Shown piece after piece: positions 3,731 through 32,711 of a stretch of DNA of 64,000 nucleotides. The position numbers were made by a program, and so were the translations under genes. The notes beneath the pieces were generated by a model. That model saw nothing but the letters and a program-made list of their open reading frames with translations, was not told the origin of the DNA and did no database searches. The first letter of the stretch is position 1. The number at the start of each line of letters is the position of its first letter. Origin of the DNA: Thuidium tamariscinum (Eukaryota > Streptophyta > Bryopsida > Hypnales > Thuidiaceae); contig OX344751.2 in the NCBI GenBank assembly GCA_947034885.2, forward strand, positions 6,634,001 through 6,698,000, read 5' to 3'.

Positions 3731-5532
3731 TTAAACTACGCCGGAAGGAAGCCGCACCATCATCTGGCCGTCCATCACACTGTCATCAAACATACACCCC
3801 CAAGATTTAAAATCATGAATTCTGGGCCATGACACTCCGCAATGCAGGACAATGTCAACTATGGGAAACAAAACATGCTTTCCTCTAAGCATCGAATCAA
3901 TCATCTGCATAATGTACTCCACGTACCTTTTAACATAATAGTAGCAAAAGTCGGCCAAGATAATTGTTTGTACAATCTCCGAAAGAAGCACCATTCCAGG
4001 CCACAACCCATAGCCTAGTGTATTAAGCAGGAAGCTGTGTCCGTCTAGCACCTGAGGGTCAAAAAGGGCAATTGAGCACCGCATATTCCTCCCTAGTGTT
4101 ACAGAATTCAAACTTAAAGCTAAATGCAGCAACTATTTGACTCTCTTGCGACTTGAAGGGCGTCTCCCCCAGTTTAAGAATTGCGAGGTGGAGCTGAAAG
4201 TGAATGTAACAAACTTCTCAGATCCTTTTGGATGTGAAACAGACAAACGGAAAAACTGGTGGACAGCAAATTTACCTGAAGAATCCAGTGAGCACAGCTT
4301 AAAAACCGTGCAATACCCAGAGCAAAGACATAGTGAGCTGTGAAAGGCTCAACAACCTGCAAATCAATATATGAACGGTTAAACAGTGGAGACTGCAGTT
4401 AAATGTCTACAAACTAGATCGTCGTGATGTTGCACAAACTGAAGGTCATACAGGCATGCCTCTCAGGTAAATTTAGCTATTTTGAACTCAACAACTGAAT
4501 ACAATTGGGACGTAAAGAAAGGTCATCTTGACCAACAGATAGCTAATAATAAAAGTTCATGGAAAATATTTACCCATGATCTAAGAACATGACAGTAGCT
4601 GTCCATCTGGTAAACCAAATAACCGAACCTCTCTCAAAACACAAAGAAAATCACACACACGTACCCGAGTGTTCTGCATAACGCGAAGCTGGGGCATAAC
4701 AGACACCGCTTCCAAGTACACACAGAAAGCCCACAACACACGGTTGACAATATGATGGGATGTTCCTGGATGGATCAAAATGGCCAGTAATGCACATGGA
4801 GCCAGCTGCAGACTCATCAAAAAGAAATTTAATTGTTAATGAGATTGTTTCTGACAATCCAAAACATAATCCACTTCCTAGGTTCAGATACAAGAATAGA
4901 ATAGCACATGGGATAGCATTGCTCTTAATGAAGAACATCTCTAGCACTGACCACAGCTGAGCTCTCAGTATCATCTGGAAGAAAATGATTAACTCACAAT
5001 ATAATACATGGGAAGATTGTCAAGATCGTCCGAAGTCGTCGACTTCAGCTTAAACCGCATCATGTAGATAACCCAAGCAGTTGTAAGGAATGTGCAGAAG
5101 TCCAGGAGAGTATGAAGATCAAACTCCATCACCACACTACAATAGAGCCGCACCATCAGGAATATAGCGGTGAGCTCCTGTGACTTAAGTGACAGTCCTG
5201 CACTCAAATAAAACATCACTCACGCAGCGTTCAATTGACACGTTCTGGAAAAATTAGGTATTCAAGTGCGATGCTCTAGAAAAAGTCTCTTTGAATTTAA
5301 AAAACTGACCTGAACAAGTCTTCTCCTTCGTCAACTTATAGATTAGGCATCCGATACCAACAGCGTGAATAAATTCTGCGGCCACAAACAAATTGTCGTG
5401 ATCGCGAATAACGAATCGCAAAAAGATGAGCACCGCAATACCGGACAACACAGCCAGGGCCGTTTTCACTTTCGGAGGCTGCTTCTTCACCCACCATACT
5501 GCCGTCTGCACAGGATTCCGTGTTCTCCTCAT
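3731..5532 (-). CDS. ERD2-related ER lumen protein-retaining receptor family protein (six exons)
   Basis: This is a multi-pass membrane protein of the KDEL-receptor fold expected in the ER-Golgi system. The family's founding member retrieves HDEL/KDEL cargo. The longer plant ERD2-related proteins resemble it, but retrieval activity should not be assumed. Coding exons on the minus strand are 5532-5310, 5197-4998, 4805-4665, 4356-4276, 4051-3927 and 3779-3731. All introns are GT-AG, the exons sum to 819 nt, and the product is 272 residues, the usual length for this plant group. Landmarks are DHDNLFVAAE near residue 45, GIGCLIYKLTKEKTCSGLSL, SLKSQELTAIF, RLYCSVVMEFDLHT, HPGTSHHIVNR, WAFCVYLEAVSVMPQLR, EPFTAHYVFALGIARFLSC, LADFCYYYVK and the C-terminal RLPSGVV. 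An in-frame TAG at 5551-5553, 21 nt before the ATG, fixes the start, and the -3 base is G. The gene appears intact and is the only such gene here. Confidence 0.95.
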
Positions 5533-5760
5533 CGCTGATCGATCACTCTCCTAAGGCTCTAGACTTCGCTCTGGTGCCACACAGCTCAACACGCAGCTCA
5601 CAGCTGCAAAACCCTAGCAACCCAAAACAGAATCCCAACAAGCCCATCAACTCCTAACCCCACACACTCCTCCCAACCCACAATCGAACAGACAAAACAC
5701 GAAACGAAGGAAAGATAGAACGAACGAAACGATTAGGGTTTTCTCACGGCAGGTTCCAAA
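5533..5760 (-). promoter_or_regulatory. 5' leader and proximal promoter of the ERD2-related gene, with telo-box
   Basis: This stretch is less AT-rich than the DNA upstream and is pyrimidine-rich on the coding strand, as plant leaders often are. On the coding strand it carries AAACCCTAA at 5741-5733, a telo-box known from promoters of plant housekeeping and translation genes, and a second AACCCTAGC-type match near 5610. No TATA box is obvious. The transcription start cannot be placed from sequence alone. Confidence 0.45.
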
Positions 5761-29889: not shown

Positions 29890-32711
29890 TGGGATTATCT
29901 CTAACTATAACAGCCTACTTCCTACCATGAATCTGAAAACCTTTGCGTAGCGCATCCTCTTGCTCTAAGGTCCATTTTTCATAGGGTTTCCTTTTACCAT
30001 GTTTTTCAACATATTTTTCTTCACCGTACTCCACGCGCTTTCGCTTTTCTAAGCGAAAAGACCTCCGCAAAGCCGAACTGGAACCATAGCAGCGTCTTCC
30101 CTAATCCTCTGAGCTCCCTTTATCCGAAAATGGGCTAAAGTGTCGAAAATGGGCTAAAGTGTCGCTAGGCGGACCTTCAAGGTCTAATAAACCTCTCTCC
30201 CTACTATCCTCCGCCTCAACACCACTTGCCTGCATCTTGGGCTTCTCCTGTAAAACAATCCACACAAATAGGTTAACACCCCGTCTGCTGTTACTAATCA
30301 TACAATCTCAAATCCACAAGAGCAAGTGTACCTGTTCTAACTGGAGTTTGAGCTTCAGTTGTTGCTCAATTTATAAAATACTTAAAAGTTGTTCATTCAT
30401 TAGAAAGGCATTTCACAATTTCCAAATGATGTACTCAAAACCACTACATACAATGCAAAAATAGATAGTCATATACTTAGACTCATGTAGAATTCATTTC
30501 AACAAGAAATCTTAAAACAAACAAATATACAGTAATAACACGAATTATTTATTTACCTTGCATTTACAATAACCCAACCTCTTCACACATATCGAAGTAT
30601 GGTTTTGATGTTGTCGATGAAGGAGTTTGAATATTGTCTGTGACCTTCTCGTACAGAGTCCATAAGGTTTGCAATTCCTTCAAATTCATAGCACCTGGGA
30701 ATTGACAATAATAGTTGAGACTATCTGCCAAACTAAATTCCATGGATATTATCCAATGGAATATCAAACCAGGAATACTCATGATTGTCGTTCCAGGGTG
30801 TTGCACAACTCGACAAACACCATAGTTTCGCATCTAAGTCTTCGAAATAGTAATGCTCCCATCGGCAAATGCTTGAACAAAGCATCGTTTTTCAAAGGCA
30901 GCTTCCAACAACCCTTTCTGTTAAAGCAAATACCTAAAACGCTCACCATTTTCAAATGGCACAATGTATTAAATTTTGGGGGCACCCAAAATTAGTATGT
31001 TGAAAGTTGCCAAGAGGCTATCTTCAACATGAATGGAGGTTCTCATGCCAAACATGCATGCTATGATAGCACTCCTTGTCACCCCACGGATAACCTTCAA
31101 ACATCCACCTGTTCGTGTCTTAAACCCCTCTATCCGCATTGTTGCACATAATCCAAAATCGTTATTCACAAGTGGGATATTGTAAGCAACCTTGTAATCT
31201 CCTTTTGCAATGTAATTCATCTCATTTCTTAAAAACTCATAAACCTCTACCACTTGCTCATCATAATCATCTTTACAAACAATCTTCAAATAAGAAGCCT
31301 TTGCATCAATGAGAGATTCACCACTCCTGAAGTTCAACCGTGTAGTATCAAAATGACGGTCAAGATCAACATCATTGTCGTAAAGTATTTGAAAATCTGA
31401 TGAAACATGATAAAACAAAGCCTCTCGAAAGACATCCACATCCGCATCTTCACCAATAATCTTCTTCATGACTTCATCAATGCCCATCTCCAATGCCATG
31501 CTCTTTACGATAAAATCGTGCAAATTACAAGATGGTCCTTGTGCAAAACCCGCTGCAGTGGGTGAAGTCAATGAATTTCCAAATTGAGACGTTTCAAACT
31601 TCATACAACAAAATTCACCCCTGTTCAACAATCGTGATAAGTTCACATGTCAATTAGCAATGTTGCCCGACTTGCAATTGTCATTCACCACCAAAAATCC
31701 ATGTCGGATCAACTCTGTGTTGCCACCCTTCTTCACAGTCTCCAATAAGTCCTTAGCTGTGGAAAAATTATGCTCAAGAAGCCATACAGCACATGCTTCT
31801 TCGTCCACACCCTGAAGAGCATTCAAAATGCTATTGTATTATCCACGAATATTATCTTTGATCTCCGATGATGCTTTGTTCACGAGTTTTTGAACCCACA
31901 CCAAGAGCCGGAGTAGGTTTTTGCCTTCAGCATCCTCAATCGCTTTGATGGAGTTATTGATGTGGGATAGAGACCCTTTGTACCAAGTCTTCGCTTTTTC
32001 TTGAAATGGTTGAAGAAGAACATCCCCATCACCATTAGTGATATGCCTCTTCAAAGCAAATGGAGTCATCTGTACACAACAATATGTTTGATGAATTTGA
32101 GCCTAAAAAAAAATTGTAATCTAAACTAAACAAATACATATAGTCTCACAGCACTAACCTTCATTATTGTAAAATATAACTTACATGTTTCTCATTTTGA
32201 TATATGATTAACGATTGGACATTTGATTCACAATAAACCTCATGATTCAAAAGTAATAAGCATTTATTTCAAACTTGACAACATTTAATATCCTCAACAA
32301 ATAAGAAAATACGTATCGAAACTTAACATGAACAACGTACCTTGTGCCATGATTTTTGGTCATACACACCACGTTGAGCTTCAAAATATTATTCATATTT
32401 CTATATTTACAATAATATCAAAATTATATGAATATAATGACCTGATTTAATTATATAAACATTCCATATAAAAGAAGATATAATACAATCAAACATATTG
32501 ATATGTTATTTTAAAATAATTACCTAAATGACACTAATGGCTTTTATATATTGATTGTCCTTCTCATAGTTTGAATTCTTGCAACTCATGCTTTTGCAAA
32601 CATTACAATAAAACTCATCCCCACGAGGTACTTTGGAGTCTGGACATAACTATAAGAGCCCTTTCGTGAGTCTTTGACTTTACATGATCGGCACGTTGAT
32701 TCACTGGAATT
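29890..32711 (-). pseudogene. Decayed JmjC-domain gene with Cys-rich N-terminal segment and Myb-like C-terminal segment
   Basis: Likely exons are 32711-32523, 32400-32341, 32069-30557 and 30247 to about 29890; a small extra exon near 30366-30331 (EQQLKLKLQLEQ) is possible. Exon 1 has a cysteine pattern (CRSCK, then YCNVCKSMSC) with one frame change. Exon 3 carries a JmjC fold: GVTRSAIIACMFGMRTSIHV and the HVED iron-binding pair, GAPK before the expected Trp-Tyr, then VVQHPGTTIMSIPGLIFH with the second His. JmjC proteins are Fe(II)/2-oxoglutarate dioxygenases, commonly histone demethylases. The last exon has KWTLEQEDALRKGFQIHGRK, like a telobox/Myb repeat. In-frame stops lie at about 32526, 32390, 31841, 31650, 30971, 30916, 30836, 30566, 30103 and 29917, so no full product is expected. 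The frame and splice sites are otherwise kept, and the Fe ligands are still encoded. Confidence 0.85.
30125..30162 (-). repeat. 19-bp direct tandem duplication in last exon of the JmjC pseudogene
   Basis: CGAAAATGGGCTAAAGTGT occurs twice in succession (30125-30143 and 30144-30162). It gives the repetitive peptide LAHFRHFSPFSD on the minus strand. The insertion length is not a multiple of three, yet the frame that includes both copies is the one leading into the Myb-like segment. Confidence 0.75.

Follow-up and report, generated by a model that had tools for sequence, protein, structure and literature searches.

Does a JmjC gene that is full of stop codons, with its reading frame and splice borders largely kept, record a special inactivating process or the ordinary decay of a pseudogene? 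The question is raised by a locus in a 64,000-nucleotide stretch of the Thuidium tamariscinum genome (C3:6634001-6698000, contig OX344751.2; hereafter the window), where the initial annotation had described a JmjC gene at 29890-32711 on the minus strand and attributed its damage to deamination of methylated cytosines in a silenced locus rather than to neutral decay. We searched the genome assembly (363 Mb in 19 contigs) for related sequences and compared the window copy (W) with a copy on C1 (A; C1:4.83-4.84 Mb) and a copy on C5 (B; C5:6.72-6.73 Mb). On the evidence below, W is very probably a pseudogene, one of at least seven dispersed JmjC relics, and no special inactivating process is needed to account for its state.

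The Pfam scan detected a JmjC domain on the minus strand (PF02373, E = 1.4e-9, 38.8 bits against a curated cut-off of 24), and the window match scored 41.5 bits in a genome-wide JmjC family search. The alignment of W, A and B together with phase counts gave a minus-strand gene of three exons and about 560 codons, whose exon borders are all in phase 0 (39, 20 and 501 codons) with a 7-bp insertion set aside. The features of the locus, in window coordinates, are as follows.

33559-33197, minus strand: upstream tandem repeats with a unit of about 82 bp and many cross-matches in the C1 copy, within a duplicated block reaching 33954
32647-32524, minus strand: exon 1, with the start codon at 32647-32645 and a CxxC stretch; a premature TAG at 32526-32524 adjoins the retained GT donor
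32523-32401, minus strand: intron 1, GT and AG present in W, AG lost in A and B
32400-32341, minus strand: exon 2, 20 codons, with a premature TAA at 32391-32389
32340-32070, minus strand: intron 2, GT and AG present in W, AG lost in B
32069-30564, minus strand: exon 3, 501 codons followed by the likely natural stop at 30566-30564; premature stops at 31841, 31652, 30971, 30923 and 30836
31649-30969, minus strand: longest stop-free run, 226 codons, within exon 3
31061-30714, minus strand: JmjC domain, with HVED (the histidine-glutamate pair) and the distal histidine still encoded
30363-29868, minus strand: foreign segment of 496 bp, carrying a SANT/Myb-like exon in degraded form and, at 30125-30162, a 19-bp tandem duplication
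29788-29599, minus strand: downstream block beyond the likely natural stop, matching the C1 copy at 88% and C2:26023414-26023581 at 80%

Although a JmjC relic is indeed present, the gene first described at this place joined two unrelated pieces. W, A and B all have a stop codon at 30566 (TAA, TAA and TGA, respectively), so the JmjC gene most likely terminates naturally at 30566-30564. The GT at 30557/30556, one of the borders considered usable, was rejected as a needed splice site because the stop at 30566 precedes it in every copy and the GT is not conserved in B; the borders of introns 1 and 2 are present in W as described. Across these first two introns W keeps four of the four GT/AG borders, A three and B two, and exon 3 of W runs in a single frame throughout its 501 codons.

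The segment beyond the terminator (30363-29868) is missing from A and B, which have a different sequence in common at this position, and a DNA search of the genome with its 496 bp returned one match, the window itself. Its SANT/Myb-like exon, with a Pfam match below the cut-off and two in-frame stops, was also rejected as a part of the JmjC gene: neither A nor B carries it, and no convincing JmjC match was seen in 10 kb around each of the segment's three weak protein relatives. Thus, the GRK-stop-AVI codon, which had been read as a lesion of the JmjC gene, lies in foreign DNA, as does the 19-bp duplication listed among the damage. Repeated degenerate SANT/Myb-like exons, weakly related to this segment, were observed at C10:22.557 Mb.

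With these corrections, seven premature stops count as lesions of W, together with 7 bp inserted immediately after the start codon, and no open reading frame passes through all of its exons. The insertion, which is the single frame change reported for the Cys-rich exon and is borne out by our alignment, occurs in neither A nor B; both copies also lack an 8-bp stretch of W upstream of it. The count of about ten in-frame stops drops to seven, given that 30566 is likely the natural stop and that two stops belong to the SANT segment. Most stops had been explained by C-to-T or G-to-A changes, and five of the seven are GC-to-AT steps: 32526 (TAG; CAG in A), 31841 (TAA; TAG in A, CAA in B), 31652 (CGA in A, TGG in B), 30971 (TGG in both A and B, two changes) and 30923 (CAA in A, a stop also in B). 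The two others are G-to-T changes, at 32391 (TAA; GAA in A and B) and 30836 (GAG in A). Stops are common to conflicting pairs of copies (W/A, W/B and A/B), indicating either gene conversion or repeated mutation of the same codons.

What the gene once encoded can still be read in part. Translation and PDB alignment show the iron-site histidine, acid and histidine encoded in W; the C1 copy has a stop codon at the first iron-site histidine. The best PDB sequence matches were KDM4D (E = 1.2e-5) and other KDM4 chains, followed by Arabidopsis JMJ14 (0.004) and JMJ13 (0.015), a nearness to KDM4 that is a ranking of PDB sequence matches and not a tree. A JmjN domain is typical of KDM4/JHDM3, and none was matched in the scanned pieces of the window gene, whose sequence is degraded. 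In the PDB alignment the window gene differs from KDM4 by a threonine in place of a phenylalanine, and according to PMC9029850 KDM3 has threonine at this position. The plant JmjC histone demethylases (KDM4/JHDM3 and KDM5/JARID; PMC9029850) have an iron site of histidine, glutamate and histidine and a lysine at the 2-oxoglutarate site, both of which the window gene shares; it differs from them in that no intact copy of it was found. The approximately 336 residues of exon 3 that precede the JmjC domain gave no Pfam match above a cut-off, nor did exon 3 give one in NCBIfam. Elsewhere in the window, no Pfam match passed a cut-off in nine other open reading frames or in the downstream pieces, and the window as a whole had no Rfam or tRNA hits. 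An open frame at 5254-5550 on the minus strand, without a Pfam match, reads like an ER-lumen protein retaining receptor.

To place W among its relatives, we collected the protein-level matches in the genome. The 225-residue open run gave 13 matches, of which that at C4:23.33 Mb is weak (E = 0.79), and exon 3 read through its stops gave 17 matches at seven loci:

C3, the window: W
C1:4.83-4.84 Mb: A
C5:6.72-6.73 Mb: B, with a mirrored fragment at 6.715 Mb
C1:30.86 Mb: further relic
C8:9.77 Mb: further relic
C8:15.30 Mb: further relic
C3:20.97 Mb: further relic, 35% identity

Stops interrupt 15 of the 17 matches, and the remaining two are 31-residue pieces. Genome searches that scored only the best candidates found no intact copy of the window JmjC gene. 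The JmjC family search gave 14 matches in the genome; among the eight compared, only W and A are closely alike. Over exons and introns, DNA identity to W is 83-88% for A and 78-80% for B. The gapped alignment of W and A extends from 33954 to 29599 and takes in the introns and the upstream tandem repeats, so the copying took place at the DNA level.

Both sister copies have been rearranged in their own ways. In A, an insertion of 13.4 kb (C1:4829950-4843410) splits exon 3; it has terminal inverted repeats and, judged by eye, an apparent 9-bp target duplication, presumably of the kind made by Mutator-type transposons. B lies within an inverted duplication centred near C5:6723012; between C5:6740801-6741700 and C5:6704301-6705200, 876 of the 900 bases overlap and all 876 are identical. 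Three LHC gene pairs are also inverted with equal scores, in a genome with 49 chlorophyll a/b-binding protein matches. For one of these proteins, two long LHCI chains set aside, the nearest solved chains are 8htu and 7xqp, from Physcomitrium, in keeping with a plant and probably a moss. The inverted C5 duplication and the LHC pairs are either recent palindromes or assembly artefacts.

We then asked whether the stops of exon 3 exceed what the substitution load of each copy would produce. The simulations kept each copy's own spectrum and covered exon 3 without 10 gapped codons of 501; where the parsimony ancestor was a stop or unresolved, a copy's non-stop codon was taken, which leans towards counting stops. 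For W this gave 3.4 expected nonsense changes where 5 are seen, for A 5.7 where 8 are seen and for B 10.0 where 13 are seen; the three copies together have 26 against 19.2 (P = 0.06). A three-way count that left out 31 of 500 codons, and so took in only two of W's five exon-3 stops, gave no nonsense excess. An earlier pairwise test of W and A had found 10 stops against 4.0, 5.3 and 6.9 expected (P = 0.003, 0.019 and 0.11) with the GC-to-AT share of transitions set at 0.5, 0.75 and 1, respectively, but 61 of the 226 codons it covered belong to the downstream block, which is no longer counted as coding. The window locus is more than chance as a gene relic, and its stops are not clearly in excess.

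Missense changes are depleted on the deeper branch leading to B or the stem (105 against 127.2 expected, P < 0.001), which indicates that the gene once worked. The depletion is weak in W (49 against 57.5, P = 0.026) and in A (64 against 71.6, P = 0.067). The 226-codon open run was considered as a functional remnant and rejected, since its missense changes on the W branch (24 against 25.1 expected) show no constraint of its own. Divergence points the same way: between W and A it affects 199 of 1505 sites in exon 3 and 42 of 394 in the two introns (p = 0.20), and between W and B 290 of 1490 and 57 of 389 (p = 0.03, the exon being higher). Transition/transversion ratios, calculated on blocks with earlier exon borders whereas the regional divergence and indel counts use the final ones, were 2.8-4.1 in five W-A and W-B gene blocks and 1.3-4.1 in seven repeat pairs between the window and other loci; the distant copy at C1:30.86 Mb gave 1.7 and the downstream block 10 (20 to 2). 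As the gene decayed much like the surrounding repeat DNA, its many stops need no special explanation.

Indels tell a different story. Between W and A, exon 3 has one indel per 199 substitutions, as against three per 42 in the introns (p = 0.02), and six per 59 in the introns and 3' flank together (p = 0.001); the seven repeat pairs have 47 indels per 539 substitutions (p = 2e-5). The W-B comparison gives seven per 290 in exon 3 and seven per 57 in the introns (p = 0.005). Exon 1 has two indels in 116 aligned W-A bases. Purely neutral decay does not explain the scarcity of indels in exon 3; a period of function, faster base change or a low-complexity bias on the side of the introns and repeats could each account for it. 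The claim that the locus did not decay neutrally finds support in the indels of exon 3, and loses its footing for the stops, which fall within neutral expectation, and for the transition/transversion ratios, which overlap those of repeats.

To characterize the base changes themselves, we polarized them by parsimony among W, A and B over 2163 ungapped columns, leaving out gapped columns and 18 three-state columns. Changes unique to W number 127 (46 GC-to-AT, 51 AT-to-GC and 30 transversions), those unique to A 125 (81, 27 and 17) and those on the B or stem branch 257 (132, 79 and 46). The corresponding per-site ratio of GC-to-AT to AT-to-GC transitions is 5.7 for A, 3.2 for B plus stem and 1.7 for W (p = 0.008 for W), so the count of substitutions by type, proposed as a check in the expectation of an excess of C-to-T and G-to-A, yielded only a modest per-site bias in W. 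Where A and B lost the same C in parallel, the parsimony count records a gain in W, and such homoplasy inflates the AT-to-GC class, above all in W; part of the 51 AT-to-GC changes of W is probably of this origin, parallel losses in A and B being frequent. We estimate that about 15 parallel losses in A and B and about 8 in W and B would raise the ratio of W to roughly 2.8.

Sequence context was informative over the three copies. C-to-T changes unique to one copy occurred at 46 of 86 CG sites, 30 of 50 CHG sites and 183 of 612 CHH sites, giving odds ratios against CHH of 2.7 for CG and 3.5 for CHG (p about 2.5e-5 each). The contrast of CG plus CHG with CHH is found in A (p = 0.003) and B (p = 0.001), and in W alone it amounts to 13 of 136 against 33 of 612 (odds ratio 1.85, p = 0.076). 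Methylated, silenced pseudogenes and transposon relics of plants have a GC-to-AT bias, an excess of changes at CG and CHG, few CAG/CTG sites and stops derived from CAA, CAG, CGA and TGG. Observed CAG/CTG amounts to 0.58 of the expected value in exon 3 and to 0.62 in the rest of the window, where 4-kb blocks range from 0.32 to 1.01; four other JmjC loci gave 1.19-1.56 over six stretches. Exon 3 departs from the pattern in its CpG content, which is not depleted relative to other JmjC genes (0.58 against 0.55-0.78; 0.51 in the window outside the gene). In other respects the family differs in nothing essential from such relics, although the signal is weak in W itself. The CG and CHG excess is a prediction of methylcytosine deamination and supports it over the three copies; judged from these patterns, methylation-type decay has support in the family and weak support in the window copy. 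The proposed deamination thus seems to hold for the family, with its context excess and GC-to-AT bias, and less so for W.

These results bear on three other readings of the locus. The one put forward initially, that a burst of accelerated methylcytosine deamination broke a silenced locus so that stops outran indels, draws on the GC-to-AT origin of five of the seven stops, the CG/CHG excess across the family and the indel-poor exon 3. However, W has the weakest GC-to-AT bias of the three copies, two of its stops arose by transversion, the nonsense count of exon 3 does not clearly exceed the expectation from each copy's own spectrum, transition/transversion ratios overlap those of the repeat pairs and indels are present in exon 1; we consider such a burst doubtful, if conceivable. 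The same lack of indels, the slight missense deficits of W and A and the iron-binding residues still encoded in W could also mean that the gene was translated during part of the divergence of W and A and died late. This is unlikely, and somewhat more so than the burst, as the stop at 31841 common to W and A, against CAA in B, suggests that their ancestor may already have been dead, and exon 3 diverges no less than the introns.

The many C-to-T and G-to-A changes might finally suggest RIP-like or enzymatic hypermutation. RIP produces CpA-biased C-to-T changes, whereas CHH sites changed in one of the three copies show no preference for CpA (CA 88 of 331, CC 41 of 111, CT 54 of 170), which led us to reject RIP-like mutation. 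Strand-specific editing was rejected as well, the per-site rates of C-to-T (19 of 289) and G-to-A (27 of 451) being equal in W. With equal strand rates and no CpA preference, neither process fits, and hypermutation of either kind is exceedingly improbable.

Ordinary pseudogene decay, our preferred reading, would have proceeded as follows. The JmjC gene was under selection earlier, as judged by the missense depletion between B and W/A, and was copied as DNA, since the close copies keep their introns. After W and A separated, base changes in both were near neutral. The copies would have become cytosine-methylated like transposon DNA in such genomes, and stops would have arisen by deamination of CAA, CAG, CGA and TGG codons about as often as the substitution load predicts. 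W also gained the 7-bp insertion behind its start codon and the fragment of an unrelated SANT gene behind its stop codon, and A the 13.4-kb transposon-like insertion. Four observations weigh against this reading: the indel-poor exon 3, the nonsense total of 26 against 19.2, a CpG content no lower than in other JmjC genes and the modest GC-to-AT bias of W.

A stop-rich relic that keeps its frame can therefore mimic targeted inactivation; once aligned with its sister copies and with its changes polarized, this one fits ordinary decay with methylation-type deamination. The point of wider interest is a multi-locus JmjC family with no intact member found in the assembly. It is conceivable, if quite improbable, that a JmjC lineage spread to at least seven places and then became extinct by silencing, every copy being methylated and broken. 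If true, such an extinct lineage would be the expected outcome for a mobile or multicopy demethylase gene in conflict with the silencing system of its host plant.
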